Assembly (NCBI RefSeq): GCF_002775205.1
Contig: NC_036458.1
Location: 1,017,483 to 1,081,482, forward strand
Reading direction: 5' to 3'
Origin: Xiphophorus maculatus
Lineage: Eukaryota > Chordata > Actinopteri > Cyprinodontiformes > Poeciliidae
DNA length: 64,000 bases
Below are positions 5,615 through 60,100 of this stretch, one piece after another. Each line of letters begins with the position of its first letter. Positions within the stretch are counted from its first letter, which is position 1. Position numbers and translations under genes: made by a program. The notes below the pieces were generated by a model, which made no database searches, was not told the origin of the DNA, and saw nothing but the letters and a program-made list of their open reading frames with translations.

Positions 5615-8600
5615 GTAAGTTCAGTAATTTACAAATATTTACTTTTAGCATTAGATTTAACTGTGTTTTAGCCATATGCTTACAGCCAGCTTCCATCAGA
5701 AAACAGCTGCATATACACGTTTAAAAAGTGAACTGATTGGCATCATGAAATAATTTATTTGAACTCCTAATATAAGAGCTGGTTCCACCTCAGTGCCCTA
5801 AAGTAACTTCTATAAGTTTTTAACTATTTAATTCTGACACATACACATTTTAAGGTTGTAGAAAGTTAACCTGACTATATCAGTTCTCAAATATTGATTT
5901 AATTTATTAGAGAGCTTTTCTGTATGTGAAAAGGTTATTGCCTCCTGTAGAAAATAATAATTGGTTATCTGAGTGTTTGTGTTTGGAAAACTTTAAATCA
6001 GTTTTTTACATCATTGTGAAGGAATGTTGACTCTCCTTTTTGCAGAAATGCTTCAATCAATCCGCATTTAAAGGATTTTGAGCATAATTGTCTGTTTCCT
6101 TTAAATCGGGGCTTCATTTGTTGCAGTCTGGTCTACTTCATGTTGTCAGACCAGTTCTGTTTCAGGGGTTTGTTGATTCTACTCATTTTGCAGTAACCAG
6201 GGTGTGTTCAGTGGGACTGAACTAAAAAATGTGGTTAATAAAGTTTATATTTTCAACCCCATAATATAACGAGGGGAGATATTTATTTTTCCACATAGGG
6301 CCAGGTTGGATAACTGTTTTTTCTTACTTTTAGAGTGCAGTCAGCTGGTAATGTCTCTAAACTCATGATGGTGTCTGGATTTAAAGTAATTTTCTGCCTT
6401 CCAGCACTGTTCTGGTGTTTTAATGCCTCTTTTAACAGAGTTTAGGAGGAGATGAAACTTATTTAAACCCTTTACTAGACTCCTGGGTGCACGCTGGGCG
6501 GGTTGTGTGTTTTTACAGAGCTAACCCGCCCAGACTGGGAACGCAGAATTCCTTTGTAATCTGGAAAACGAGGACATTTGATTGAAGTCATTTCCAGTCT
6601 GGAAAACTGTGGTAAAGAATAGAAATATCCTAAACTCTCCCACAAAGGAAAAATTCTGATGCAGCATCAGCAAAGTGACAATCAAAGCAAGTAGATGTAC
6701 AGTAAGGCTGGCGATCAATCTGGTCTTTCATTCTTTAAGATTTAATTTTTGGATATTTTTGTCCAAAGCGTTCATTGCGTTTCCGTAGTTCAGAGTGATG
6801 TCAGCACCACGCCACGCCGCGCCGCCATCTTGTTTTGTGTTTTACTGCTTGCATTTATTTGGAGTATTTGGGCCAGGCTGAGATTTTTTTTTAATTACAA
6901 GAATAAAAACATACAACAATAGTCCAAATACTACCAGAGTAAAATTGCAATATTAAGAGAATAAATTTGTAATTTTACGAGAACTCTGACATAAAAAATA
7001 AGAAAAAATTAGAAATGTTGATCATCTTGTGAAGTTCTACTTTGGTTTAAGTTTCATAGGTAGAAAATACTTCATCTTTTAACACATCAGCATCAACTTA
7101 TTACCATAAGCAGAGCTTTGAAATGATCAGGCAAACGACTGAGCTGCTCAGGTCAGATCACTAGAACTCTATCAAAACCTTTTTCTCGTTAAAACGATTT
7201 ATATCTTGTAATTTTAAGATGTTTTTTCTGGTTAAATTGAGTCTTTATTCTCCTAATTTAATGGCTATGTTTTGTTAATTAAACTAAAATGAATCAGAAC
7301 TAAACACAATAAAGACTAAAATAAAAACGCTGTTCATTAAGGCCAGTTTCAAAGTAAATCCCATGCAGTTATTATAAATAGCTGCTGCTGTCCAAAGGAC
7401 TCAGAGACATTATTACATATTATTGTTTGGTGGAAGCAGAGAGTTTGTTGATGAATAAACAGAAATGTTTGAACACTTTGCAGCCTGACTCTGCTCCTCC
7501 GCTCAGGTCCAACCAGTCGGCCGGCACTGTCCGCTCCACAGAGAGCGTCGGCGTCCGGCAGCCGGCCAAGAGCAAGATCCGGCGTCACAACAACCGGCTG
7601 TCCACGGTTTTCAACTACAGCCCCAACCTGCGGGAGGGGGGCCGGCGGGGCCCAACCCGGGGCGGCCCCGACCCCCAGGCTGCCGACGACCCCGCCGAGC
7701 TCTCCAGCCAGCGCTCCGTCCCGGGGATCCTGAAGATCTTCGGCAGCGACATCTGCCAGGGAGCCCATTACAAGAGCGTGCTGGCCACCAGCCAGTCCAG
7801 CGCCAGGGAGCTGGTGAGGGAGGCCCTGGAGAGGTGAGAGCGCCCCCTACAGCCCGGCCCTGGAGGCCGCCCGCCTCTCAATTCTTATCACATTAAATAT
7901 ATATTGACAAGTCTTCCGATTTTCACTGTAAGATAGGAAATGAATATTTGCAGTTTGAGGAAAACATTCCGTGTTTAGCAAAAATAGTCATAGTAGAGCT
8001 GCAGCCGACAATTATTTTATTAATCGATTATTCTGATTAATCATTGGATAAATAGCAATCATTATTTAACCACTAAAACCTGCTTAATACAGCTGTGCTC
8101 CTGTCGGCCAGGTACTGTCTGGAGAAAGAGGACGCCAGCGACTACGTGCTCTGTGACGTGATTGGTCAGACGGGGGCCGATCACCAGTGGAGGAGGGAAT
8201 GCTTCCGGGTGGTGGGGGCCAACGAGAGGCCCCTGCTGCTGCAGGCGCTCTGGAAGCCCAAGGAGGGTTTCTTCAGGCGCTTCGAGATCCAGCGCCGCTC
8301 CACCGTGGAGCAGCAGAGCCTGAAGCATCGAGACACCATCACGGCAGGTAACCCTGTACCGGCAGGTAACCCCGTACCGACAGGTAACCCCTCCCCCGTA
8401 CCGACAGGTAACCCCGTACCGACAGGTAACCCCTCCCCCGTACCGACAGGTAACCCCGTACCGACAGGTAACCCCTGCCCCGTACCGACAGGTAACCCCG
8501 TACCGACAGGTAACCCCTCCCCCGTACCGACAGGTAACCCCGTACCGACAGGTAACCCCGTACCGGCAGGTAACCCCTCCCCCGTACTGACAGGTAACCC

Positions 8601-11600
8601 CTAACGGACAGTGTACAAACCCCTCATTGCAGATAAACAACATTTTATCAAGTATCCTAGGTCTGGCGTCTTCTCTGCAAATATCTCAGTAAACTTCAAA
8701 TAAGAAAAAAATCACTGGAGTCGCCCTTCAAAAAGAAAAAAAAGCCTGTTAGGGAGACAGGTGGGTTACCTGTACCGACTTCCCCTGTCGGTACAGGTAA
8801 CCCCGTACCGACAGGTAACCCCACCCTGTACTGACAGGGCAGTGGGGTGTGAAGCGTCTCTCTGGACATTCCTCTGTGCTCACCGGCTCCAGCAGGGCTG
8901 AATGGTGTTTGTGTTACGTCAGCGCGACGGAGCGACTGTTGATGTCAGATAGAGGGCCGCTCCGCCCCCCTGCTGTCCTCCGGTTCTGCTGCCTGGAGGC
9001 GGCGCCAGTGCAGTCGAGCATTATGTTTGGGTCGGTTTGGTTTACCAGAGCAATTTCAGGGGAATTTCAGCCACTGTAAACAAGATTTCATAAACAAAAG
9101 CTCTCTTCTGTTTGTGTTTTAGATTAAGTTAAACACTCCAGACATCCAAGGATGGAATTTTTTTCTGTTCTCAAAAACCTAAAATGTTTGGTAACTTTTT
9201 TTATTTATTAAAAAAAACTAAATGTATTATTTACAGTGATGTGGTTTTCTCTCCGAGGAACACTGAAAGGTTAACGAACCATCATGTCTGTTAAAACAGA
9301 CTCACGTTGTTTAAAGTCTACGTCTTTAGACATACAGGTTTTAAATTTCATTCATTAAGGTTTTATAAAGGTCTTTGAGTTGGTGACCCCTGTTGGTGAC
9401 CCCTGCAGACCCTCCTGTTGTTTCTCCACGTGCAGCAGCTGCTTTGAAACCTCTCAGAGGGTGGCGCAGGCAGAAAGCTTGACGGTGCGTCTTGTGGTTG
9501 CAGGGGTGAACGCTCAGGCCCGGAAGCTGCAGAAGAACCGGTCCAGAGTGGCATCCCTGTTCGTGGACAGCGGGGGGGAGGACACGGAGGGCCCGGGCTT
9601 CTGGAGGAGCCTGAGCGACATGGACCTGTCGACCACGGAGAGGGAGGCGGGCCGGGCCCAACGGAGCGCAGTCAGAGAGAACCCGGAGGCCGAGGCCGAC
9701 ACCGAGGTTCTGCGGCTCGGCTTGGAGAAGGAAGAGACGGAGAGCAGCGATGACAACGCCACGCAGTACTCCATACACCCACCTTTCGACTTCCCCTACT
9801 TCCTGCTGCTACAGGGCTACGACCACAGACAGGTGGGCTATCGACCAGAGACAGGTGGGCTATCGACCAGAGACAGGTGGGCTATCGACCAGAGACAGGT
9901 GGGCTATCGACAGGAGACAGGTGGGCTATCGACCAGAGACAGGTGGGCTATCGACCAGAGACAGGTGGGCTATCGACCGCCAGGTTAACGTTTTACTGCT
10001 ACTAGAAGTTGGACTTAGAGCAGATCATTTTAATATTGATTTACCTCCATGTTCCTTCATTTGTTGTCCACTCTTAGTGTTTATGTCAGCTACTCTGAAA
10101 CAAGATGATTACTGATGAACAAATATTAGAAAACTGAATCTGATCTCCATCCACCATCCAACACACTAACACCTGGTAGGGCTGCCAGGGGCACAGGTGG
10201 CTCTCCAGAGGTCAATGGGCGAGAGGCGGGGTCACTTGGACAGGTCTCCAGTCCATCGCAGGACAACACAGAAACAGACAGGACAAGCAACCGCACGCAC
10301 ACGCACACACACACACACACCTACATTAATAGAATTTAGAAAGACCAGTCAACCTGACAATCATGTTTTTCCATATTGGAGGAAGCCGGAGTTCCTGGAG
10401 AGAACCCGCTATGCACAGGGAGAACATGCAGAAAGACCATAGGCTGGGAATTCAGCTTATATTTCATAAAGACCATCAGTTAATAACGTGACGTACTACA
10501 GACGCACCAACACAACGCACCAGTCGAAACACTGAGACTTCCAGCATGAAGCTCTAAATAAAACCAGACACTCTTACTTCCATTAGAGCATCAAGTAACA
10601 AGACGTTTAATAAACATGATTAAATTCCCATGTTGCTTGTTTTTTACAGACGTCTGTTTTGCTTGATGTGGCTGCTGCAGTTTGATGTGTACAGCTTTAA
10701 GCATTCCCAGATGTACAGCCAAAGACAGACAGAATGTACAAATACTTTAACTATACACAAGCTTTCATCATTTATTGGAATACATACATGAATACCATAA
10801 AATACTGTAGTAAAGTTTGGATCTGTTTTCCCCTTGAGCATTTAGAGGTTGCTCAGAAAATCCCTCCAGTGTGTTAAGAGACAACATGGAGAAAAGCAGC
10901 ATGAGAGCTGTGGATTATCATCTTAATCCCTGAGCCTAGTCACATTTTGGTTACCTGGGTCCAAGACGAGCTTTCTCGGGAAGGAGTTACAGAACCAGCA
11001 GATCTATTTCTGAATATCTGCTCTGTCATTTCGTGCCCACAGAAGTCCAAGTAAAAAAACTCTCCAGAATGTTTGACAGATGCTGACCACATCCTGCTTC
11101 TGAAACAATAATAACTCGGCAGCGTTAGAGCTTTGTTTCCTGGACTTCAGGACCGGGTCTAACCACTTTCTCTCCCTGACCCGGTTCCTACAGCAGAGCG
11201 GCTCCGTCCAGCTGCAGGAAGTGCTGCGTGTTTATCGCAGCCGCTGGAGGAGGAGATCGCTGACGGTGCAGGATGGCGCTAGCTCTGCGGCGCGCTGCCA
11301 GCTCCTTTCTCCTGACAATAGGCCAGAACCAGAACCAGAACCAGAGCCAGAGCCAAAGCAAAGAAACAAGGCCTTTCTGTGTTGTGTCAGTTGACATAAA
11401 ACAGGAAGCGATAGCTGATGTTATTAATGCTGGGCTGTTCCAGGCCGACTGAAGGAACATAAAGAAGCATTTCAGCTGAGAACCGTCATCCTGACATTAA
11501 TCATTTAATTGGACAAAGGAAACTGGATCATTCTGCAGTTTTAGTTCAAAATTCAAGATTATTTTAAACAACTTCGGAAATGCATAATAAATACAGATAA

Positions 11601-14600
11601 ATCATTGAACTGCTTCCTAAAAAAAGAAATTAAACATTTCACTGTGTAAAAGTCATCGTTTGATCATTGCAGCTATAAATCCTCAGTTGTTACAGATCCA
11701 GAGGAGAAAGTTCATGCTTTAGATTAACTGATTAATAACTGGACAGCAGTAGGGATTATTAGGAGATTTCTTTACACATTTGAACCAGGTGGGGAAAAAA
11801 CGCTGGTTGAGAAGTTCTGGGTAAAACCTTCTTAAATGCAAAATATTTATATATTTTTTTTATAGTTTTGGTTAATTACAGTTCCGACTGTGTTCTTTCA
11901 GCAAACTGCATTTTTTTGAGTCTGTACTCTTCAGTTTGTAATTAATCGATTATTAAATTAGTTTTCAATAATCTGCTAATCTGATGAGTAGCGGTTAGCC
12001 TCGCTGCATCCCGCCTCGCCGCGCCCCTTCGCCGCGCTGCGCCTGGCCACGCCTTGCCACGCCTCATCCTGCCGCTCCAGGTTGTATTCTTAGCGCCTCA
12101 TCCTGGTTTCCGTTCACACTGCTGGCTGATTTCCTGACTGTTACACAAGGGGATCAGTTGAATCCCAGACACCCTGGCAGGTCCAGAGGATGCGCTAAGT
12201 CTGCTGGATTAGCAGGACATAACGGTGACGGACACCATATTTAAATCTACGACAGTTTCCAGCTTCTGTAATAATATTAGCAGTTTCATCTTTACTTCAT
12301 TTGTTTAGTTTAACTCTGTCTGGCATCATCGGTTATCAGGTCTAGGCTAGGTTAGCGTTAGCATGTTGACCTCTGTTTTTACAGAACTTGTTGATTATTG
12401 ATCTGTAGTTATTGGCTGATTATGCCAACACAAAGGAGCAACTCAACAACTACTTCCTTTCTTATTTCAAAATAAGAGTGCTAAGCAGATGCAGCTTGGT
12501 GTTGCAGTATTTGGAAGTGATTGATTTTGATCTTTTAGGATTTTGTGATCTACCTGATGAGCGGGAGCAGCACCATCTTCGGCTGCTGCAGGGAGCACAG
12601 TACCGGAGAGGATGAGGAGCGGCTGAAGGTCGACATCCTCCTGTTTGCTCCTGATGTGTCGTCACAGCACTGCTGCGTCAGACGCCTGGACTCCAACTCC
12701 CAGAGTTCCTCAGGAAAGCAGAGAAAGACTGTGACCTTGCTGAGGCCCCTCCACGGGGCCCCCGTCACCAGAAACGGTTTCCTTCTGGACAAGGAAGTAG
12801 AACTGAATCCTGGAGATCTGATTGGTTTGGGGAAGCACTACCTGTTCCTGTTCAAGGATCCCACCAGCGGGTCGGGTTCTCCTCCTGCTCCGTCCTGGAT
12901 GGGCCGGGTCCGCCCGGGCTCTGACGCTAGCACTTCCTGTTCGTCCTGCGGCTCTTGCATCACCGTGAAGCGGCTCCAGGGGAAACCACCGGCATCCTGC
13001 TGGAGGAACCTGGAAGGCACCGAGGCTTCGCTGCGCTACGAGCTGCAGCAGGAGGAACGGGTCCTGCAGGAGATCCTGGACATGGTGGATCCCAGTGAGA
13101 ACGAGCCAAAGCTGACTCCTGCTTTCCTGCTGATTCTCTGCATCCAGCACTCCGCCGGCTCCTTCCAACTGACTCACTTCAGGCAGCTGCTGCTCCGGAT
13201 TGCCAGCCAGATCCAGCTCATTACGTGGGTAAGCAGCAGGAACGCTGACTTGAACTCCACTGCATGTTTTCTACAGTTATTCATGTGTTCATGTGATCTA
13301 ACCTTTCAGGAGAAGACAAAGGAACTCGCTGCAATGCAACCAGAAGCGTGAGTCCACATCATCCAGATGTTTAACTGCTGTCTATAAAGAGAAACTAAAC
13401 TAATATCTGTGCCTTACAAAAGTAATCAAGCTCCTTAAATCTTTCTACATTTCGTCACATTAAAGTATTTTTATAGGTGAAACATTTCAGAAACCTTGTT
13501 TCATCACATGAAAGACAGCAAAATTAAACGCAGTCGGCCTGCCGCCGCGGACAGGCAGCAGATTAGCTTCATTTCTGTATTTCCTGTCTGTTCATCAGCA
13601 GCTCTGTTGATGATGCAGCCGATCAGCTGCAGCAGCTCAGCATGGAGGAACTGATCTCAGGTCTGCAGCCGCTGGTCCTGTGGATGGCCAACTCCATCGA
13701 GCTGCTGCACTTCATCCAGCATGAGGTCCCCCAGCTGTTGCCATGGAGACGGGACAGCATGGACCAAGGTGGACATTTTGTTTGTCTCTTTAAAGCCGTC
13801 AGGCCCTCCAGCCCTGGGAAGGTGGTAAAAAGTGTTGTGTTCTGGTTTCCGTCAGAGCGGCTGCAGGCTGAGCTGTGGTCCACCCAGACGGCCTGCGAGG
13901 AAGCCATGACGGTCCTGGAGGAGGTCATCATGTTCACCTTCCAGCAGTCGGTCTACTACCTCACCAAGGTCTGCCCCCCACTGCTACATGTGATGCAGGA
14001 AGCCTGGCTGTGCTAACACAACAGTCTGTTTTCACTGAGCGTTTTCCAGACCCAGAACACAATAACAGCATGGAAACTCTCCGGCAGGAAAGAGCAGGGA
14101 GGTAGAGAGCGGGGCGTCCTTTCCACTCTGCAGTGTAAACACTGGCAGCAGTTATCTGGAGCTGCACAGCTTCCACCGACTGGACCTGCTGGGAAACAAC
14201 CAGTCACATCATCGCTGTCCCAGACTCACTTCTACCTGAGAAAACATTCTCACATCACGCAGGATTCACTGGCACATTTCAGCAAACCAGGGAAACCGAT
14301 GGTTGAACTTCAGATTCTGTCGACTGCAGGAAGTTCAGAGTTTCTGTTTCCATTTTCTGGCACATTCACGGCGCCACAAACGGCTCCGAAAAATCATTCC
14401 TGTTTCAGACAGGACAGTCAGAGTCACTGCATTTGATCTCCAGCTTTAATATTTATTAACCTTCTCATGAAACAAACAGTGGAGAAAACAGAAAAATACA
14501 TTTTCAGATAATACTTAATGATTTTTAAAACCATTAACTGAAATTTATCAACAATGATGAATCAAACTCTTATCATAAGACATTTTTCTGATTCTGGGAT

Positions 14601-15699: not shown

Positions 15700-18600
15700 C
15701 GCGTGTGCTTCCGGTGCCATAGAAACACAACATACATGCCAGAAAAAGCAGATATTTAGATAGTTTAAAAACACACTTCTTCCCTTTATAACCTTTGACC
15801 TTTTTCACAGAAGGAGAGTCGTGCTGAGCCACTTTTCCCTTCACCAGATCATAAACCGAGCGTAGTTTTATCTCATTAAAACGAGAAAGTTTGTCATTCT
15901 AACGAGATTCTGCTGCTGCATTTATTTCAGTTGTGCAGTTAAAGGCCTCCTCAGTGTTCAGAGTCGTCATGCTTTTGTCCCCTTGCAGAGCATGTACCCG
16001 GCCCTGGGCGGCCTGCTGGATGGGAACCCGTTCTCTGAGGACGGTCAGCTGCGACTTCCTGTCAGCCTCAGCAACATCCTGCAGGTCCTGAAGGAGGCGC
16101 TGGAGCTCCTCTCGGCCTTCCAGGTGCATCCGGACATCTCCCTGCAGCTCTGTGCCTACCTGTTCTTCTTCATCAACGCTTCGCTGTTCAACAGCCTCAT
16201 GGAGAGAGGTAGCAGCACACCTTAGCTTTAGCTTTAGCGTTAGCGTCCCCAGCCTTCTGAATGCGGATCATGGCCGTTTGATTGTTTCTCCCTTTACTTT
16301 AGCTTTTGGCAAACTTCTATATGTTTAATATTTGCATTAACACAGACTGGATGTTTTAATCATTCATGAAGTTTTTCTTTGAACACAAATTTGAATTTAT
16401 CTTTAAAATCAGCTTTTATTTTGAAGGTGGCTACTGTACCACCGTCATGCATGTTGTAATGTCTGAGACTCTTCAGCATCTGCCCTTGGGTTGCCATGTT
16501 CTGGTCCGTCAGGTCAATATGTTATTATTCATGGAAACAGTTTGAGTGTTTGTATGAATAATAAAGTAAAGAACTTTAGGGAAATGAATGTTGGCAGGTA
16601 ACATGTTGAAATGTTCATTATCAGACTAGATGTAATATCAGATCTTAAAACTGACTTTATTACTGAACCAGCAGGAAACCTGAGCTGCATCACAGCAGCT
16701 CGTTTTTATTTCTCATATTTAATGTTCGGGTTCTGTTTATGCTGGCCTTATGGGCTGCTTTGGCTAACTGGAGGTTCTGCTTCTTCAGGGTCCGTGGCCG
16801 GGTTCTACCAGTGGTCCCGCGGCGTGCAGATCCGGGCCAACCTGGACCTGCTCATGGACTGGGTCCAGAATCAGGGCCTGGCCAACATGGCCGCTCAGTT
16901 CCTGCAGAAGCTCTCCGCCGCCGTCAATCTGCTGGCCACGCCCAAAGAAACGCTTCTGCAGGTCAGCTCACACCTGGTGGGCGGAGCCACACTTAGCCTC
17001 CGGGGTTTTATTCCCTCAGGTGTCCCATGTTTCTGTTCTAACTATTCACAGCATCAGGATCTTAGTAATCAGTTCTGATTCTGGACGCGACTCGCTGCTT
17101 GCTCGTTGTTGTTCAGAAGGAAACGGCCTGCGGGAAGCCAGCCAGGAAATGTTCCTGTCATGACATCATGAAGCTGTAGCCGTTCCTGCAGATTATATAA
17201 TCCAGAGTAAATCCTGGAGCGGAGTAATGTTTAACCTGGGGCCGCCTCACATCCTGTTGGCTTTTATCTAGCCGTTCAAACCAAACATCCAGAAAACCGT
17301 TTGTCCAGTTCCTGTCAGACTGCTCTAACTCCTCATCCTCCCTAAGCAACGCGTTCTCTTCCTCACCTGTTCAGGTTCAGCTGCAGGTAAACAGAAAACA
17401 CCCACCGCCCACATTACCACTGAAATCTGATGGCTCGGGTTGCCATGTTACGGTCGTTCTGCCCTCGGGTTGCCATGTTGCGGCCGTTCTGCCCTCGGGT
17501 TGCCATGTTGTGGCCGTTTTGCCCTCGGGTTGCCATGTTGCGGCCGTTCTGCCCTCGGGTTGCCATGTTGCGGCCGTTCTGCCCTCTGGTTGCCATGTTG
17601 TGGCCGTTCTGCCCTCTGGTTGCCATGTTGTGGCCGTTCTGCCCTCAGGTTGCCATGTTGTGGCCATTGCTCCTGTGTTTGGGCAGAGCGTTGCTGTGAG
17701 ACGGAGCTTTGGGAGGAAGTTGATCCTCAGAGGATTAGAGGGAGTTTGAGGGACTTTAGTTCAGGATAGAAACGGTTTGATGAGCTTCGCATGAAGGTTT
17801 GGCTGAGGAAGCAGAGGTCAGTTAAAGTAAAGTTTTATAAAGACTCTTCCTGCCCACCTTCCTACCTTTATTTAAAACTCATAAGCAAACATCATCATGT
17901 TTCTATTTGTTTCTACTGGTAGAAACTTTATGATTTTCAGTTCAGTTTGTTTGAATAGATCCAGATCACTGCAGTGAAGCATTCTGGGACAGAAACGGTT
18001 GAACAGAATCCAGACCAACTTCTCAAACTTCAGCATCTCTTTAGATTTATTATTATTTTCAGGAGACCTCAACCCGTTTCCTCATTGTGTGATTCTGATC
18101 CGTTGTGTTGTGGAAATATGACAGGTTTTAACTGAACCCAAAATATCCGAACCTCGTGTTGGTAGAAAATGTTCCTGTGGGTCAGGCAGAAGGATTTACC
18201 TCCAGTAGAAAATCCCTTAGACTGAACAGAGCGTCCTGTGGCGGCCATCTTGTTTGTTAGGAACTGTGAAAATCTTGTTCCTTTCTAAAGCACAAAGATA
18301 GATGTACTACAGCTCAAATGCAGATAATTTGACCCTCAGGGCATGTTCTAGTATGAGATGTTAGTCTGGCATGTTGAGTTGACACCTGTTTCCACAGCAT
18401 GACTCAAAGCAGCAGCCAGCGGCTCCACGCTGCTGACACGCTGAGGATTTCAGAAACATCACCGCTCTGGAATGAGACGACTTGTTGTGGTCGCTGCAGA
18501 GCGGGACACGAATCCGTGGCTTTTAGTTTTCCATCGGCAGCGGCTGCTGCTGCTGCTGCAGCTGGAGCTGCTGCAGCTGGAGCTGCTGCAGCTGGAGCTG

Positions 18601-21600: not shown

Positions 21601-24083
21601 GAGGATTTGGTTGATCTTCATCAGGCGTCTTTACTCTCATTGGCTGCTGTTGTTTTCTCTGAGCTTTTATGGAAAGCAGTTTGGCTAAATGCATTAAGGC
21701 GTTAGCCTGAAATCCAGCCATCTGGCACCGTCACTGTCTGCCTCTAATGGCTGCTAATTCCTCACCAGTAATTACAGTCACATAACTTTAATGTTCAGTC
21801 ATTTACATGCAGAAATAATACAAATGTTTTAGTTCTCATAGGAGAACGCCTGCAGCAGTTCATTGTGACGTCATTTATTATTTGAGATAAAACAGAATTT
21901 CTCAGTAATTTAAATATTTTTGCCTGATTTAATGTGATCATCATTATAAATATATTCATGTGTTATTGTAGTATTAACTGTATTAACTAACGTAGATAAT
22001 GTCCTATAAATTAATAAGTTCTGGGTATTTGATATTAACCGATATTAACTAATATTTTATATATTTTATACAATTTTCCCTACTATTTGGCAACCTTGTT
22101 GGCTTTGCTTCTGTTCTCCGGTTCACCTGTAAAGGTTTAGCCCCGCCCCCAACAAAATGTTACTCCACTGAAGTGGGCGGAGCCAGGTGTGGGGTCAGGG
22201 GAGGGGCTTATCTGGGGCGTGGTCAGGATGGGGAATTGTTGCTGCCACTATGTTGCTTTATTTAGCAACTTTTATTTTAAAAGAGCCCCTGGCTGCCAGT
22301 GTAGCAACTTATTTTCTGTTGTTCTGTTTTTGGAGGCGACATGTGAATCACATTTCAGCCCACAGAGGGCAGCACTGACACGGGTTCAGCCCAAATACTC
22401 CAGAATTGAACAAATTTATACAAAAATGTCCAAATTTGCACAGAAATAAGTTAGACAGTTTACCTGCAAAAAAGTTGATTCAGCTTTTAGTTGCTTTTTA
22501 AACACCCACAATCCTTTGCTGCATGACCAGCCCCTCCCCTCCAGTCAGTCCAGTTTGACCCACTGGTGCTGACGTGAATGCCGACAATTCTTGCTTCCTT
22601 ATTATTATTGATAACTAATATTTTTGCCATTTCTTCCTGGTGGGAGCCGAGTGGCTGGATCCCAATGGATCCCAATGGATCCCCGGCCTGACCCTGGTCT
22701 CTGTGGTTCTGCCCAGATTAGTAATCCTTTAATCTGTGATGTCAGGACGGACAGCAGCGGCCGGTCATGGGAATTTCCAGCTGGGTTGGTGCGTGGAATC
22801 TGAATGTGAGCGGCTTTGTTCAGGCCCGGCCCGGCCCGGCCCGGCCCGGCCCGGCGGGGTCTGACGGGGGTAGGGAGGAGGAGAGGAAGGACGATAACCT
22901 GATGCTGTTTGACTGTTTCATGGTCGGTGATTGCTGCCAGATAAAAGCTTCATGATGTCACCGCTGAGTCATCGGCTCCACCCAGTAATGAGGGTTTCTA
23001 CTGGTTTATTCCCAGTCTAACCACTGGCTTTGGTTCTTCATTCCAACAGTCTGGGAACAGAAAAACTTCATGACCTCATAAAATCTTTGATGAACTTTAT
23101 TTGTTTGCACAAACTAACAGTAGGGCTGGACATTTATCGTAAAAAACTTCCAGATTTATTTATAAACTTCAATTAATGTTTAAAAAAACAAACTGTTAGT
23201 ATTATCGAAAAATTATTTTAATTTATTTCCACTGTTCAACAAAACCAATAAATATAAAAAGTTTGATTTGAATCCAGAGAATTTGTGGCAGATTTTAAAT
23301 TGAACTTTAATTCACTGACTGTCCAACATCTGGCTGACAAACTGGAGACGAGACACAGAGCACTTCTGGACGTCCCCAGGAGGACACGCTGTCCCCAGGA
23401 GGACACGCTGTCCCCAGGAGGACACGCTGTCCCCAGGAGGACACGCTGTCCCCAGGAGGACACGCTGTCCCCAGGAGGACACGTTGTCCCCAGGAGGACA
23501 TGTTGCCTCCAGCTGTCCTCTCTGCTCTGTGCAGTCGGTGGAAGCGGTGATGCGGAGCCGGGAGACGCGGCAGCAGAAGAAGACAGAGAGGAAGTGTTCA
23601 CAGTGGAGATCCACAGAGGGCCCCACGGCCTGGGACTGGCCCTGGTGGACGGGACGGTGAGACACCAGGACAGTAATCACTCCTTAGCGTCTCTACATCA
23701 GAACACCGTCTTTATTCTGTGATGTTGCAGCAAACGGCATTGAGAATGAGCGGCATCTACGTGAAGTCGGTGGTTCCCGACTCTCCAGCAGCTCGCTGTG
23801 GGAAGCTGAGGACCGGCGATCGGATCCTGGCCGTCAACGGCGCCAGCCTTGTCGGAATGGAATACAGCACGTAAGACAGCAGAGACGGCTGCATTCACTC
23901 TGCATTCACTCTGCATTCACCCTGTTAATGCTAACAGTTTAGCAGCTTCCTAACCGTCTGCCATCTGCTTTCAGAGGCAGAGAGTTGATCCGTTCAGCAG
24001 GAGACGCTCTGAGGCTGCTGGTGGCAAAGATGGACACCGGCTGCAGCTGCAGCAGCAGGAATGCAGCTGCAGCTACATGCTGA
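5487..24083 (+). CDS. rasip1: Rasip1 (Ras-interacting protein 1), complete 15-exon model with C-terminal PDZ
   Basis: Rasip1 is an endothelial effector of Rap1/Ras-family GTPases that works with its paralogue Radil and ArhGAP29 to lower RhoA signalling at junctions and allow vessel lumen formation (family knowledge). Coding exons: 5487-5614, 7507-7833, 8112-8347, 9504-9832, 12539-13228, 13310-13347, 13599-13768, 13856-13968, 15989-16208, 16789-16961, 18930-19074, 20689-21243, 23535-23656, 23731-23870, 23975-24083. All phases join, giving 3495 bases, 1164 residues plus stop. Domains: N-terminal LNFPVGLLIRSPKRRLAKLG typical of Rasip1 rather than Radil; RA about 120-225; FHA-like about 325-445; DIL about 590-860; PDZ about 1060-1145 with GLGL binding loop. 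Mammalian Rasip1 is about 960 residues and lacks the PDZ. The N-terminus, FHA and DIL regions fit Rasip1 best, while the LLTPPNTPQGPEPGEP linker and PDZ resemble Radil. The ATG at 5487 is the only in-frame start in exon 1 before the conserved segment. Confidence 0.9.
6774..7506. other. rasip1 intron 1, distal part
   Basis: Short GC-rich patch (6795-6835) in AT-rich sequence. No exon-like content is seen before the exon 2 acceptor at 7505-7506. Confidence 0.4.
7507..7833 (+). CDS. rasip1: rasip1 coding exon 2 (start of RA domain)
   Basis: Acceptor CTCAG, donor GTGAGA. It encodes a basic, Ser-rich stretch and then the opening of the Ras-association domain (PGILKIFG, HYKSVLATSQSSARELVREA). Confidence 0.9.
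8112..8347 (+). CDS. rasip1: rasip1 coding exon 3 (RA domain), donor inside a tandem array
   Basis: Completes the RA domain (YVLCDVIGQTG, ANERPLLLQALWKPKEGF, RFEIQRRS). The expected boundary is DTITAG|V, since Radil and Rasip1 continue with (V/I)NAQAR, which is exon 4. The donor CAG|GTAACC at 8348 is the first of 13 repeated donors (8348-8594), all in the same phase. Confidence 0.88.
8343..8604 (+). repeat. 18/24-bp tandem array carrying 13 repeated 5' splice sites
   Basis: Units are GTAACCCCGTACCGACAG (18 bp) or the same with an extra CTCCCC-type hexamer (24 bp). Every unit contains CAG|GTAACC, identical in core to the exon 3 donor. GT positions are 8348, 8366, 8384, 8408, 8426, 8450, 8468, 8492, 8510, 8534, 8552, 8570 and 8594. 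All spacings are multiples of six. The exon frame stays open to a TAA at 8602-8604, so each donor would add NPVPTG or NPSPVPTG units in frame. Confidence 0.92.
8763..8803. repeat. Perfect 17-bp hairpin made of the donor repeat
   Basis: Arm 8763-8779 (GGGTTACCTGTACCGAC) is the exact reverse complement of 8787-8803, with a 7-base loop (TTCCCCT). The right arm continues into two more direct copies of the exon 3 donor repeat (to about 8836). Confidence 0.9.
9504..9832 (+). CDS. rasip1: rasip1 coding exon 4, donor inside a 22-bp tandem array
   Basis: Opens with VNAQARKLQKNRSR, continues through an acidic Ser-rich linker and ends with YFLLLQGYDHRQ, the first strand of the FHA-like domain, which continues as DFVIYLM in exon 5. 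The donor CAG|GTGGGC at 9833 is the first of seven 22-bp spaced copies. Confidence 0.88.
9823..9985 (+). repeat. 22-bp tandem array carrying seven repeated 5' splice sites
   Basis: The unit is ACAGGTGGGCTATCGACCAG plus AG. CAG|GTGGGC recurs at GT positions 9833 (the exon 4 donor), 9855, 9877, 9899, 9921, 9943 and 9965. One unit (near 9908-9915) has CAGG in place of CCAG. With a period of 22, only the donors at +66 and +132 preserve frame. Confidence 0.92.
10130..10445 (+). repeat. Common teleost interspersed repeat with internal (CA)n
   Basis: Contains GGCGAGAGGCGGGGTCAC, CCAGTCCATCGCAGG, GAGGAAGCCGGAGTTCC and GGGAGAACATGCAGAAAG, blocks I recognise as a very abundant unclassified fish repeat. 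A CA microsatellite is at 10293-10321. A partial second copy lies at about 28495-28590. Confidence 0.65.
10446..12538. other. Remainder of rasip1 intron 4
   Basis: AT-rich with a short CCAGAA-type repeat (11325-11352) and a GC-rich CGCC patch (12000-12080). No coding content is recognised before the exon 5 acceptor TCTTTTAG. Confidence 0.4.
12539..13228 (+). CDS. rasip1: rasip1 coding exon 5 (FHA-like domain)
   Basis: 230 codons, phase 0 at both ends. It carries DFVIYLMSGSSTIFG, HGAPVTRNGFLL, ELNPGDLIGLGKHYLFLFKD (FHA-like fold shared with Rasip1/Radil), a Cys-containing insert, and then KLTPAFLLILCIQHSAGSF, which begins the region leading into DIL. Confidence 0.9.
13310..13347 (+). CDS. rasip1: rasip1 coding exon 6 (38 bp)
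   Basis: Encodes EKTKELAAMQPE, the conserved WEKTKELA helix split by the preceding intron. The acceptor is AACCTTTCAG and the donor GTGAGT. The 81-bp intron before it is stop-free and in frame. Confidence 0.88.
13599..13768 (+). CDS. rasip1: rasip1 coding exon 7 (start of DIL domain)
   Basis: Encodes MEELISGLQPLVLWMANSIE, the characteristic start of the dilute domain of this family. It ends in phase 1 with donor GTGGAC. Confidence 0.9.
13856..13968 (+). CDS. rasip1: rasip1 coding exon 8 (DIL domain)
   Basis: Encodes CEEAMTVLEEVIMFTFQQSV and ends YYLTK. The donor AAG|GTCTGC is weak (poor match at +3 to +5), but the protein break coincides with the conserved LTK junction and the next exon joins in phase 0. 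Confidence 0.85.
13969..15988. other. rasip1 intron 8
   Basis: Holds a 30-bp unit repeated about 2.5 times (15112-15195, GGTTCTTATGATCTGAACTT core) and a GT/GC microsatellite (15666-15703). No exon is seen. Confidence 0.5.
15989..16208 (+). CDS. rasip1: rasip1 coding exon 9 (DIL domain)
   Basis: Encodes MYPALGGLLDGNPF and LCAYLFFFINASLFNSLMER. The acceptor is CCTTGCAG and the donor GTAGCA, ending in phase 1. Confidence 0.9.
16209..16788. other. rasip1 intron 9
   Basis: Only AT-rich sequence and a short GCTTTAGCGTTAGC-type repeat (16225-16247) are seen. Confidence 0.4.
16789..16961 (+). CDS. rasip1: rasip1 coding exon 10 (DIL domain)
   Basis: Encodes GFYQWSRGVQIRANLDLLMD and KLSAAVNLLATPKETLLQ, close to the Rasip1 dilute domain. 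The acceptor is CTTCTTCAG and the donor GTCAGC. Confidence 0.9.
17436..17668 (+). repeat. 30-bp minisatellite in rasip1 intron 10
   Basis: About eight copies of a unit containing GTTGCCATGTTGCGGCCGTT and CTGCCCTCGG. Because the period is a multiple of three and the unit lacks stops, several frames on both strands stay open. These are not genes. Confidence 0.85.
18537..18606 (+). repeat. Trinucleotide-like CTG/GAG repeat
   Basis: GCTGCTGCAGCTGGA units repeated in rasip1 intron 10, a simple coding-like repeat outside any exon. Confidence 0.7.
18930..19074 (+). CDS. rasip1: rasip1 coding exon 11 (end of DIL domain)
   Basis: Encodes ASWASLRAEFATLTPAQLHH, near identical in pattern to the Rasip1 end of DIL. 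The acceptor is CCCCTGCAG and the donor GTGAGA. Confidence 0.9.
19218..19438. mobile_element. hAT-type non-autonomous element in rasip1 intron 11
   Basis: The termini CAGTGGTCCCCAACC and GGTTGGGGACCGCTG are inverted with one mismatch. Flanks CTTTCTAG (19210-19217) and CTTTATAG (19439-19446) form an 8-bp target-site duplication with one change, the hAT signature. It is 221 bp long with no transposase. Confidence 0.85.
19447..20688. other. Rest of rasip1 intron 11
   Basis: Contains one copy of an approximately 84-bp duplicated block (19547-19630; second copy at 21896-21981 in intron 12) and TTATTGATTATTGATTG simple repeats (20590-20680). No exon is recognised. Confidence 0.5.
20689..21243 (+). 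CDS. rasip1: rasip1 coding exon 12 (post-DIL linker)
   Basis: Starts ADVLLSLDSHPPLILPSS, a Rasip1 hallmark, then a helix-rich part and a Pro/Ser/Gly-rich linker ending LLTPPNTPQGPEPGEP, which resembles the Radil linker. A possible internal donor GTAAGG sits at about 20870. The main donor GTAAGG at 21244 gives the phase required by exon 13. Confidence 0.85.
21244..23534. other. rasip1 intron 12
   Basis: Holds short GCTAACCAAGTGCTAACCAG repeats (21478-21534), a GGCCC run (22822-22856), the 84-bp duplicated block and, near the acceptor, the 19-bp array. No exon is recognised. Confidence 0.5.
23374..23504 (+). repeat. 19-bp minisatellite just upstream of the PDZ exon acceptor
   Basis: About seven copies of TGTCCCCAGGAGGACACGC. 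Each contains CCCCAG|G, a 3'-splice-site-like core, but without a pyrimidine tract. The array ends about 30 bases before the functional acceptor at 23533-23534. Confidence 0.85.
23535..23656 (+). CDS. rasip1: rasip1 coding exon 13 (start of PDZ)
   Basis: Encodes an acidic stretch and then EVFTVEIHRGPHGLGLALVD, whose GLGL is the PDZ carboxylate-binding loop. The acceptor CTCTGTGCAG lies just downstream of a 19-bp tandem array. Confidence 0.85.
23731..23870 (+). CDS. rasip1: rasip1 coding exon 14 (PDZ core)
   Basis: Encodes SGIYVKSVVPDSPAARCGKL and TGDRILAVNGASLVGM, the canonical PDZ core. It is phase 0 in and phase 2 out, with donor GTAAGA. Confidence 0.9.
23975..24083 (+). CDS. rasip1: rasip1 coding exon 15 (end of PDZ, stop)
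   Basis: Encodes GRELIRSAGDALRLLVAKMD, the last PDZ helix and strand, and then a short Ser/Cys/Ala-rich tail with TGA at 24081-24083. Confidence 0.88.
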
Positions 24084-26562: not shown

Positions 26563-27197
26563 TGGTTTGGACCTGTTTGGTTTGGATTCATTTGGTTTGG
26601 ATTCGTTTGGTTTGGACCCGTTTGGTTTGGACTCGTTTGGTTTGGATTCATTTGGTTTGGACTCGTTTGGTTTGGATTCATTTGGTTTGGACTCGTTTGG
26701 TTTGGATTCGTTTGGTTTGGACCCGTTTGGTTTGGATTCATTTGGTTTGGATTCGTTTGGTTTGGACTCGTTTGGTTTGGACTCGTTTGGTTTGGACCCT
26801 TTTGGTTTGGACCCGTTTGGTTTGGACTCGTTTGGTTTGGATTCATTTGGTTTGGACCCTTTTGGTTTGGACTCGTTTGGTTTGGACCTGTTTGGTTTGG
26901 ATTCGTTTGGTTTGGACCCGTTTGGTTTGGATTCATTTGGTTTGGACTCGTTTGGTTTGGACCCTTTTGGTTTGGACTCGTTTGGTTTGGACCCTTTTGG
27001 TTTGGATTCATTTGGTTTGGATTCATTTGGTTTGGACTCGTTTGGTTTGGATTCATTTGGTTTGGACTCGTTTGGTTTGGATTCATTTGGTTTGGATTCA
27101 TTTGGTTTGGACTCGTTTGGTTTGGACCCGTTTGGTTTGGATTCGTTTGGTTTGGATTCATTTGGTTTGGACTCGTTTGGTTTGGACTCGTTTGGTT
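26563..27197 (+). repeat. 15-bp minisatellite, about 42 copies
   Basis: The unit TTTGGTTTGGATTCG varies only at the last five bases (ATTCA, ATTCG, ACTCG, ACCCG, ACCCT). With a period of five codons and no stops, long open frames arise on both strands (FGLDS on plus, NPNQT/NPNQM on minus). No start context, splice sites or homology support a gene. The plus strand is G/T-only over the GG-TTTGG core. Confidence 0.93.
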
Positions 27198-31500: not shown

Positions 31501-33140
31501 TCCACTAGATGGCGCTGCTGCGCCAGCTGATTCTGAATCCTTTAATTCGGATCCAGAATGTTTCTGACAGCACAGAAATCATCAAACATTTCCATAAATC
31601 ACCACAATCTGCCAGGACAGTCAGCCGTTCATTTGGTTCTGTTCTGGTTTCTCCCAAAGTCAATGTGCTGGGTCAAAGGTCAAAGGTTACCTCACAGTGT
31701 GAATGTATTTAGATCTGCTGTAACAGAAGAAAACCACCAGAGACATGAATTATTGAGGAAATTCATGCTTACTGTTTTATAATACAATAAGAAATTAAAA
31801 ACTTTAATTTTAAGAAAATTTAAATCCAATAAAAATAAATCAGAAATAACAGATTTTATTTTTTTTTTAGAATAAAATCTGTTTTAAACGAGGCGTCGCT
31901 GCAAGTCGACATGAAAACATCAGTTTGGTTTCACTTTGTTCCATCGTTTGTTTCTTTTCTACTTTGAGTTTATCAGACATCTGAATCTGGACTTTGACTA
32001 GACCAGTGCAGCACCTGGAATCTTTACTTTTTCAGTCATTCTGCTGTAGATTTGATGCTGTATCATCATCCTGTTGATGATCCAGTTTGGACTGATAACC
32101 AGCCCAAATCACCATCCTACCACCGCCGTGCCTGACTATTAATAAACTTTACTTATGAATCTCTTTAAAATTTGTGGAAATGTTGCTTGAAAGCAAATAA
32201 TCCTTTAAAACTGATGATGATGTGGAGCTGGCAGAGCCAAAGCGTCCACATATAGTGATTAATAATCAGTGTTTATCACGAAAGATTACATTTATTCTAA
32301 TGGATTCCCTCTGTCTTGATTTACTGTCCTTGTTTCAGCCAAGAGGCGAAATAAACGACGTTAATCTGCTGAGCCTCAGAGCCAACCGACAGCGTTTACA
32401 GAAACCACAACCAATCAGGTCGTTAAGAGAAACTCCAACCAATCAGGTCATTTTCTGACTTCAACAGGCTGCAGGAGCCACAATTAAGGTTTTTCCTTTT
32501 TTCCCTTTTTCAGGCAGAAAAAAAAGAAAACATACTGAGGAACAGGAGAGCTTGTGTGTGTGCGTGTGTATGTATGTAGGTGTGTGTGTGTGCGTGTGTA
32601 TGTATGTAGGTGTGTGTGTAGGTGGGGATTTGCTTTGTTGTGCTGCACGTGTCCCTGCAGCACTGTGTCTCCTGTCTCCTGCACGCGCTGCTCTAATTTG
32701 TTGGAGTGCTGTGTGTCCTGCACGGCGGCGACTAACACACACACACACGCAGACACACACACACGCAGACACACACACGCAGACACACACACACACGCTG
32801 TCGCCGCCTGGCAGATGTTCTTCACCTTCTCCTTCCTCCTGAGCTCTGACACGTGGAGCAGCAGCACATTTAAATCTCTCGTCCCACAACAAAGACAAAC
32901 TGTTTTATGAAATCTTTACTTTAACTTTTATAAAATATTAATTTGTTCTTAATGCCTGTCTGAATATATTTCCACCCATCCAACCTGATTGGACTCGACT
33001 AATTGCAATTGATTGATTGATGGTATTTTAACTGAAAACCATATATCAACAAAATCAGCAACATTTTCAAATCAAAACCGTTTTTGCTGCTAATTTATTG
33101 AATAAACAGACATATGAGCTGAATAACAGATTATTTTAAT
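28600..33140. other. Intergenic region without recognised genes
   Basis: Contains an (ATT)n run (29559-29585), a CpG-richer patch near 30150-30330 whose nature is unclear, and GTGTGTATGTATGTAG and CACACGCAGA simple repeats (32553-32620, 32733-32798). Open frames near 30.5-31.2 kb show no family I recognise. Confidence 0.4.
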
Positions 33141-47463: not shown

Positions 47464-48241
47464 CCTGCACATTCAGCAGCAACCAGCAGCAACCTGCACG
47501 TTCAGCAGCAACCAGCAGCAACCTGCACGTTCAGCAGCAACCAGCAGCAACCTGCACGTTCAGCAGCAACCAGCAGCAACCTGCACGTTCAGCAGCAACC
47601 AGCAGCAACCTGCACATTCAGCAGCAACCAGCACGTTCAGCAGCAACCTGCATGTTCAGCAGCAACCAGCACGTTCAGCAGCAACCTGCACGTTCAGCAG
47701 CAACCAGCAGCAACCTGCACGTTCAGCAGCAACCAGCACATTCAGCAGCAACCTGCACGTTCAGCAGCAACCAGCAGCAACCAGCACATTCAGCAGCAAC
47801 CAGCACATTCAGCAGCAACCTGCACGTTCAGCAGCAACCTGCACATTCAGCAGCAACCTGCACATTCAGCAGCAACCTGCACGTTCAGCAGCAACCTGCA
47901 CATTCAGCAGCAACCTGCACATTCAGCAGCAACCTGCACGTTCAGCAGCAACCAGCAGCAACCTGCACATTCAGCAGCAACCTGCACGTTCAGCAGCAAC
48001 CTGCACATTCAGCAGCAACCTGCACGTTCAGCAGCAACCTGCACGTTCAGCAGCAACCTGCACGTTCAGCAGCAACCTGCACGTTCAGCAGCAACCTGCA
48101 TGTTCAGCAGCAACCAGCACGTTCAGCAGCAACCTGCACGTTCAGCAGCAACCAGCAGCAACCTGCACGTTCAGCAGCAACCAGCACATTCAGCAGCAAC
48201 CTGCACGTTCAGCAGCAACCTGCACGTTCAGCAGCAACATC
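47464..48241 (+). repeat. Composite 19/29-bp minisatellite
   Basis: About 35-40 units built from GCAGCAACCTGCACGTTCA and the variants GCAGCAACCAGCACATTCA, with optional GCAGCAACCA inserts. Long open frames across it (Gln/Ala/Ser-rich) are a consequence of the repeat. The right edge abuts a SINE fragment. Confidence 0.92.
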
Positions 48242-57100: not shown

Positions 57101-60100
57101 AACTTCTGTTAAGAAAAAGGATTAATTTTAGTGCTTAATACAGTTAATCTACGACATGCGTAACAGTTAGATTCAATACTCTTATTTGGAACAGGTTTCG
57201 TCTGAGATGCGGTAAGCAGGCCGAAGCAGGGCCCTTTTCCTCCCCCGCTGGCAGACAGAGCAATAAAATGTACATTCCGATGGGGGGGGAAGAGACTTTT
57301 TGGCGCCAGGGATCTCCCCGTACCAGACAGAGATGAACACGAAGTGGTCCGCCCTTTTACTTAGACAAAAACCAGACACCTTTGCCATAATGAGGGGAGT
57401 TTCCAAGTTTTTCTGAGTCCCTACAGAGTTTCTAATTGGTCAAAGAACGGAACGCCTTGACTGCATATATTAAATAGGGAAACACCTCTTTACTTTAAGA
57501 TTCCGCGTTAAAAAAAAAACCAGAGAGAGAGAGAGACAGCGGCCGCTATTTTTGCCTTTTTGTCTTTGTTTCGTGTTTGTTTGTCTTCCCCTTGTGTGTT
57601 TTTATTATTATGAGAAAAATGCATATCTCTGTTCCTCTGCAGCTTTGTTAATTGATTCATGCGTTGCTTTGTATGAGATTAAACTCTGTGACCTGTGACG
57701 TCAACACGCTTTGTTGTTGTTTCGTTTTAGCAGCACGCCGTCGCTGCACGTCGCCCACGGAGAACGTCGCTCGCCAAGGACTCGGGGAGAAAAGAGGAAA
57801 GAGCCAAAACTTTTTGTCCAAAGCTAGCATTAAATTACCTCTTTTTTAATACTTCCTTTCCGGGTTTTTGTTATAGTAAAATCGACATATGAATTATTTC
57901 ACCTCATATAATCACATATACCGTTATATGAATGTAGTGGTATAGAAATATACATATTTCTATACAAATAGTTTCAAGGTAGGAAGTTCCGGTTGGGTAA
58001 AGTGGGCGTGGTGTATAAGAAGCCGCTGCGTGACGGGAGTCACGTGGGACGGCGGAGGAAGATGGCAGCACGCTAAGAGAGCTCTGGAAACCCACAATTT
58101 TCTTTCACATTTATCTGGAATATACACCTCAATTTACCCGGATATAAATACTTCTGTCAAGCTAAATCCTACAGTCTTTCTAAAAAGTCAGATATTGATA
58201 ATTTACTGACGAAATGTCAAGCAACAACAGAGCTAACTTTTTCAAAGGTGCAGCAACGAGAAGCAAGCTAGCAGCAGGACCTGAAAGCACTTCCGCTAAC
58301 CCGCTAACAGAATCAAGCTGCACTGAAGGGAAACATACCGACTCCAACTTCATGGAAGAAATACGGAAAATGAGCGCAACACTACAAACTGTTGCAGCAG
58401 ATGTTGTCTCGATTAAAGAAACAACTAAAGAGCTTAAAGACTCCGTGGAAAATATCCTAATTAGGCTGGGCGAGGTTGAACAGCGGGTGTCCGACATTGA
58501 GGACACAAGAGCTCAAATGGAGAAACGTGTGGAGAAACTGGCGACTCTGTGGGAACGAGTCAAAGACTTGGAGAACCGCAGTCGGAGGAACAATGTAAGA
58601 ATGGTGGGACTGAAAGAAGATAAAGAAGGAAGAGGAAACATGCGTCAATATGTGGAAAGGATTATTGCTCAAGGGTTCGGCCTCACGGGCAGCGAGTTCG
58701 AAGTGGAGCGGGCCCACCGTTCACTGGCGCCCACCGTTCACTGGCGCCCACCGTTCACTGGCGCCCAAACCAGATGTTAATAAATCACCCCGAACCATCC
58801 TGATACGGTTCTGACGCTCATCAGGCCGGGACAAGGTGCTACAGATGGCCAAAGAAAAACGTGGGCTGGAGTGGGAAGGCTGCAAATGATCTTTCTTTGA
58901 GGACCTGCTGGTGGAGAAAAGGAGAGCTTTCAACACCGTAAAGAAATGTCTCCGGGAAATGGAGGTGAAACACCGGCTGCTGTTCCCAGCAACGCTCATC
59001 TTCACCTGGAAGGGAGAAAGGAAAACTTTCCGGGACAATTCAGAGGCTGGAAGGTTCCTGCAACAAGCTAAGTGAAAGGCAAGTGTTATTATCTGAGGTG
59101 TATATTTATCAAAAATAGTTTGTAAAATTTAAGTCAGTTGTGTGTTTCGGGGTTCGGACGGCTGTGTTGCCCAAGGACAAATTTCAACGTGTCTCACGGA
59201 CCAAGTTTAAATAGAGGGGCTAAGAAAAGGACTGGAAGCGGCAGCATGTTCTGTGTTGCTTTTCTTTTCTTTTCTCTGCACCAGGTCAGTGTACTTCAGT
59301 TTGTTCATGTCGTTAGTATTAGTTATTATGCTGTTGTGTATGTACCTCGTTAAGTGGCAGATCAAATCAGCAAAGTGTACCAAATAGCAAAAGATGTCTA
59401 AGGGATAAATTAACATAATTTCATGGAATATTAATGGATGTGGGCACCCAATTAAAAGACAAAAAGTTTTGACTTACCTAAAATCCAAGGGTGCTGATAT
59501 TGCATTCATCCAAGAATCACATATAATTGGGGATGAAGAAGCTGCTAAGTTCAAAAGAGGCTGGGTGGGTAAAGTGTGCCACAGCTCATTTTCAAGAAAA
59601 CCAAACCGTGTAATGATCCTTGTTAATAAAAATATAAGTTTTGTTAAACTTAAGCAACATAATGATAAGGAAGGGCGCTTCATATGTGCTGAAGCCTTGC
59701 TGAACGGAACTAGGACTGTCCTCTGCAACATTTATGCTCCTAATCAGGAAGAACCCGACTTCTTTCATGACGTTAATAGCATAATAGGAAACACCGAGGG
59801 CCAGATTATTCTGGGGGGCGATTTCAACCAGGTGATGGATGGATTTATTGATAAAACACGCCAAGGGGGAAACCAGCACCTAAGGACTGGGCCGCAATCC
59901 AAATACTGGCACAGGACTGGAATCTGGTTGATATATGGAGACTGGTAAACCCACGAGAGAGAGAATATACTTTTTACTCTCACAGTCATAAAATATATTC
60001 TAGAATTGACTTTTTCTTAATATCTAATAAGCTAGTGGAGTCCGTAATGGGCTGTGAAATAGGAACAATTATTATAAGTGACCATGGTATGGTGGAGTTA

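Follow-up and report, generated by a model that had tools for sequence, protein, structure and literature searches.

Tandemly repeated 5' splice sites at two consecutive introns of a radil gene in Xiphophorus maculatus

Where alternative 5' splice sites lie in tandem a few bases apart, the competing donors change protein length by whole codons. Longer repeats have been described at or near splice junctions as well. In human genes within segmental duplications, internal tandem repeats (units of ~30 bp, about four copies on average) straddle exon-intron boundaries, are kept or spliced out, and can change splicing (PMC2812944). The first introns of GH and MSTN-2 in the fish Sparus aurata carry polymorphic minisatellites, and additional splice sites are predicted for one allele of MSTN-2 (PMC3045353). 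C. elegans minisatellites have been linked to multiple alternative splicing (PMC4039745), and introns can be gained by tandem duplication of exon sequence containing AGGT (PMC4974935). Here we describe a gene of Xiphophorus maculatus in which the donors of two consecutive exons are repeated 13 and seven times. It lies in a 64,000-nucleotide stretch of chromosome C16 (NC_036458.1, positions 1,017,483 to 1,081,482, forward strand; hereafter the window), to whose first base all positions refer. Since boundary repeats in human, intronic minisatellites in fish and a link to splicing in C. elegans are already known, the larger array is an extreme case of a known phenomenon.

This larger array, array 1, occupies 8345-8599 on the plus strand at the boundary of exon 3 and intron 3. 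A motif search and Tandem Repeats Finder (TRF) together recovered 13 perfect copies of the donor CAG|GTAACC in 18- or 24-bp units: CAGGTAACC begins at 8345, 8363, 8381, 8405, 8423, 8447, 8465, 8489, 8507, 8531, 8549, 8567 and 8591, each of the 12 spacings is 18 or 24 bp, and its nine bases contain no mismatch. The 24-bp units have six added bases, CCTCCC or CCTGCC. TRF reports a 42-bp (18+24) higher-order repeat over 8352-8559, with 97% matches and a score of 395; this score and periodicity therefore set the array apart from a chance cluster. Its head-to-tail units, within the ~10-60 bp range and of high identity, make it a minisatellite; as a variable number tandem repeat it would also differ in copy number between individuals. 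The true donor of coding exon 3 is part of the array, since joining 8347 to 9504 rebuilds the expected protein. Beyond that point the exon 3 frame reads on through the array, encoding GNPVPT or GNPSPVPT, until a TAA at 8602-8604 (plus strand) closes it just past the thirteenth donor. When each donor was joined in turn to the acceptor at 9504, all 13 joins were open and in frame, adding between 0 and 246 nt, or at most 82 residues; intron 3 is phase 1. An earlier note had described 13 donors spaced by multiples of six, a frame open to just beyond the last of them, and whole NPVPTG or NPSPVPTG blocks added by each. All of this holds.

Across the window, CAGGTAACC occurs 15 times on the plus strand and twice on the minus strand (ending at 8772 and 10957). 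The two plus-strand copies outside the array, at 8794 and 8812, lie deeper in intron 3 among stray copies of the array unit (8758-8836, plus strand), which include the inverted copy ending at 8772 on the minus strand and so make an inverted repeat. Array 1 and exon 3 have just CGGCAG in common. Predicted RNA folding of the array region was no stronger than that of shuffled sequences (z 0.09, 51/100 shuffles), and for lack of excess stability an RNA structure exposing the first donor was ruled out.

The gene had been named rasip1, an identification that did not stand. Joined exons 2-4 match PDB entry 3ec8 (FLJ10324, which we take to be RADIL) at E 8.4e-57, outscoring RASIP1 (5kho) at 4.5e-26, and on these matches the gene carrying the arrays is radil, a paralogue of rasip1. 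RA, FHA and DIL domains follow in that order on the plus strand. The used part of exon 2 (7469-7833, plus strand) holds the first half of the RA domain (Pfam E 1.5e-06), ends at an unrepeated donor, GAG|GTGAGA, and joins openly to 8112. Exon 3 (8112-8347, plus strand) holds the second half; alone it falls under the RA cut-off (18.4 vs 21 bits), and it ends in ...DTITA-G at the first donor CAG|GTAACC, with an unbroken 3ec8 alignment over the 8347/9504 join. Exon 4 (9504-9832, plus strand; VNAQARKL...LLLQGYDHRQ) is supported by the PDB alignment and open joins. Exon 5 is FHA-like (12539-13200, plus strand), its start taken from an in-frame join and its 3' end approximate, placed by eye; Pfam FHA gives E 2.3e-04 on the open reading frame 12539-13348. 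The DIL domain follows at 16602-17075 (E 9.3e-12). Array 1 thus inserts between the RA and FHA-like domains, where the earlier note had placed it. Near 23.5-23.9 kb the translation looked PDZ-like by eye, and Pfam gave no hit when 23534-23659 and 23730-23870 were each submitted on their own; to our knowledge, RASIP1 has no C-terminal PDZ domain.

The use of the first donor yields DTITAG-VNAQARKLQ, and human 3ec8 reads DTITAG-INAQARRLQ at the same place, without an insert. A protein search of the fish's own genome returned copies on C5, C10 and C3 in addition to the array gene on C16. In the C10 copy, exon 3 ends in DTVTAG and exon 4 begins with INAQARKLQ, at an identical place and phase and again with no insert. 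Its exon 3 donor, CTG|GTAATA, is repeat-free in the stretch read, and its exon 4 donor, CAG|GTACGT, is unrepeated. The C5 copy has an unrepeated exon 3 donor, CTG|GTAAGT; its exon 4 was missed by the protein search. We label C5 and C10 presumptively as radil paralogues, the PDB comparison covering C5 (3.2e-47 to 3ec8, 1.5e-30 to RASIP1), and the C3 matches reached 38% and 50% in the protein search. Because the exon 3 donors of C10 and C5 are single, array 1 is, of the copies examined, peculiar to the one at the C16 locus. And because the DTITAG-(V/I)NAQARKL junction is intact without an insert in human 3ec8 and in C10, the donor at 8348 is, by this comparison of proteins, the canonical and ancestral one. 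Intron gain by tandem duplication was ruled out, the position and phase of the intron being equal in the C10 paralogue.

A second array, absent from the earlier note's account, stands at the next exon. Array 2 (9830-9970, plus strand; TRF, motif search and unit alignment) repeats the exon 4 donor, CAG|GTGGGC, seven times in tandem with a period of 22 bp, at a phase 0 junction. This period is out of phase, and only donors 1, 4 and 7 (3/7) are in frame, the seventh of which would add 44 residues; donors 2, 3, 5 and 6 run into early stops. Its unit, GGGCTATCGACCAGAGACAGGT, aligns with the exon 4 tail, GGGCTA-CGACCACAGACAGGT (plus GT), at 20/22 columns, a score reached by 5/3000 random 44-base stretches of the window, with array-overlapping stretches kept in. 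On this alignment the unit is plainly the tail of exon 4 itself. Given the phase of array 2, reading frame is not what maintains the extra donors as a group. It can further be argued that free donor choice would spoil over half of the exon 4 choices, so that either the choice is disciplined or a cost is borne.

The strength of the donors was scored with a position weight matrix of approximate human donor frequencies (maximum 8.63). On this matrix CAGGTAACC scores 3.28 at every array 1 donor and CAGGTGGGC of array 2 scores 4.67, compared with 5.85 for the unrepeated exon 2 donor, GAGGTGAGA. The repeated donors are therefore on the weak side, moderately so.

The comparison with described systems is one of likeness in part. 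The human repeats, like array 1, are minisatellites astride exon-intron boundaries; that report offers RNA evidence and stresses new introns, whereas array 1 is seen in the DNA of an old conserved intron, whose donor has been copied 13 times in phase (PMC2812944). The Sparus aurata repeats are akin to the radil arrays in being intronic repeats of a fish, with repeat-number polymorphism a feature of the Sparus case; unlike the radil arrays, they come with no mention, in the available text, of a repeated canonical donor (PMC3045353). AGGT duplication and array 1 both duplicate a stretch with splice signals, yet the former, as far as its accessible account goes, yields a new intron, and the intron of array 1 is old, with the position and phase of its C10 counterpart (PMC4974935). 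Tandem alternative 5' splice sites share with array 1 the whole-codon changes (predicted for array 1) and differ in their few-base spacing from 13 repeat-made donors at 18-24 bp. No description of a fish radil donor repeated in this way was found in open-licence PMC literature, searched mostly at listing level.

The locus lies ~1 Mb from the end of C16 (25.8 Mb), in DNA rich in minisatellites. Counting arrays with a period of 9-70 and at least 2.5 copies, we found 34 in 104 kb (the window and four flanking 10-kb pieces) versus 9 in 200 kb sampled elsewhere (20 samples, each of 10 kb, spread over ten other chromosomes); the piece L038 was run through TRF only and enters neither count. With minisatellites this dense, it is less remarkable that some touch junctions than array 1 by itself would imply. 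A donor-like motif reached threshold in 5/34 of the nearby arrays, compared with 1.52 expected from shuffled units, in a region that was picked because of the finding, and in 0/9 of the sampled arrays (0.49 expected). One of the five is GT-rich (32554-32618) and another, in flanking piece L028, lies on the strand opposite a GRB2-like gene; with these two set aside, three of the five are at known or probable donors. A search of the genome's own DNA found no relatives of either array elsewhere, apart from array 1's stray copy 200 bp downstream, a lack of matches that is not proof of rarity. As far as such a search can tell, a dispersed repeat family was ruled out for both arrays.

Several other repeats of the neighbourhood were recorded. 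A probable coding exon of a coiled-coil-like gene (L026:2381-2458, minus strand; frame inferred), at most 10 kb outside the window, has its donor GAG|GTGAGC three times at 24 bp. In the same piece, a 24-bp array of nine copies (L026:1079-1293) follows, on the minus strand, a possible open-frame end (QKYLRS and a stop, by eye). Intron 1 of the GRB2-like gene (GRB2 E 4.3e-29; L028:5578-5681, minus strand) is largely a 39-bp array with acceptor-like rather than donor copies. An acceptor-like CCCCAG also recurs in each unit of a 19-bp array of nearly seven copies at 23372-23500, which ends ~35 bp before a likely acceptor. Long minisatellites of 15 and 19 bp, with ~42 copies each, occupy 26563-27197 and 47484-48238, and reverse-transcriptase-like open frames, by eye resembling a long interspersed nuclear element, lie at 58202-62904. 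Among the sampled pieces, one from C10 at 5.0 Mb is wholly a 21-bp satellite of ~478 copies (L023:13-9988).

Overall, we consider it probable that the arrays are locus-specific minisatellites that grew across splice junctions, the first donor being canonical and the others extra and tolerated. The repetition of donors resembles ordinary repeat growth more than it does a device made for a purpose, and its occurrence at both of two neighbouring introns of the same gene, with 13 and seven donors, supports this. A stretch across the junction of radil exon 3 and intron 3 would have been duplicated in tandem and have expanded into a minisatellite, presumably by slippage or unequal exchange, each copy carrying a donor. 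The donor at 8348 would be used canonically and predominantly, restoring the conserved protein, and the other 12 would be identical, moderately weak extras, splice-competent in principle. These may be tolerated and nearly neutral, either ignored or, if used, lengthening the protein beyond the RA domain by nothing but complete NPVPTG or NPSPVPTG blocks. Array 2 would have arisen likewise, and the L026 array probably too, in the same minisatellite-rich DNA.

Some observations weigh against this explanation. Every donor 9-mer of the two arrays (13 and seven) is free of changes, whereas the rest of the unit varies (Fisher p = 0.066 for array 1 when its last unit is left out, 0.011 when that unit is counted, and 0.019 for both arrays when their last units are left out), a weak hint of maintenance among units that share descent and are not independent. 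In-phase spacing is found in two of the three donor arrays. Furthermore, splicing often prefers the intron-proximal member of a set of equal competing donors, a tendency that speaks against dominance of the first. As for phase, the periods modulo three are 0, 1 and 0, and at least two in phase out of three has a chance of 0.26 (hand calculation, p = 1/3); on this pattern, selection for reading frame is unsupported.

The alternative that survives best, itself unlikely, is that the choice among 13 donors, together with copy number, sets the length of a Pro/Thr/Gly linker, with several of the isoforms functional. The open, in-frame joins of all 13 identical and intact donors would suit such a role, as would an insertion point between two domains. 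The in-phase outcome, however, is not rare by chance: random intronic 18-mers are open in the required frame in 74% of cases and 24-mers in 66%, so an 18-bp unit would be both in phase and open in 1/3 x 0.74, or about one array in four. The same gene also carries array 2, where four of seven donors bring early stops, and neither the human protein nor the paralogues have an insert, the paralogue donor being single. The unit variants of array 1, too few for a test, mostly alter residues (T/A, S/C, P/L), with a single silent one.

We judge it somewhat less likely still that intron-proximal donors win, in which case most radil mRNA would carry a long insert (up to the full 82 residues) and protein length would track genomic copy number. 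The equal strength of the donors over array 1 is consistent with such an outcome, and SF2 reportedly activates proximal 5' splice sites, as the title of one reference puts it; the wider rule of intron-proximal choice likewise counts for this alternative. A long insert would nevertheless break DTITAG-INAQARKL, a stretch conserved between human and this fish. Array 2 is neutral on the matter, since the rule would favour its in-frame seventh donor. Finally, an error of assembly in the copy number, or in array 1 itself, is very improbable: near-identical repeats are difficult to assemble, but the regular 18/24 unit pattern with private variants, the similar arrays nearby and an assembly of 704 Mb in 101 contigs, which suggests long reads, all argue against it. 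Repeat growth across the junctions, with a canonical first donor, remains our preferred explanation.

The 13 identical donors, together with the seven of the exon that follows, constitute a natural experiment on the choice among equal competing donors, in which array 1 forgives that choice and array 2 mostly punishes it. If downstream donors are used, array 1 could lengthen the radil protein. More speculatively, and with little expectation on our part that it is so, splice junctions in the subterminal genes of this fish might repeatedly seed minisatellites. Donor arrays would then act as mutable rulers: any unit gained or lost would alter the set of possible donors and, with a unit length divisible by three, would also make a protein linker longer or shorter, within and between individuals. 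Short-read aligners produce spurious junctions between repeats (PMC10632439). If it is true that junctions often seed fish minisatellites, such repeats would make splicing vary rapidly, and transcriptomes built from short reads would misinterpret that variation.

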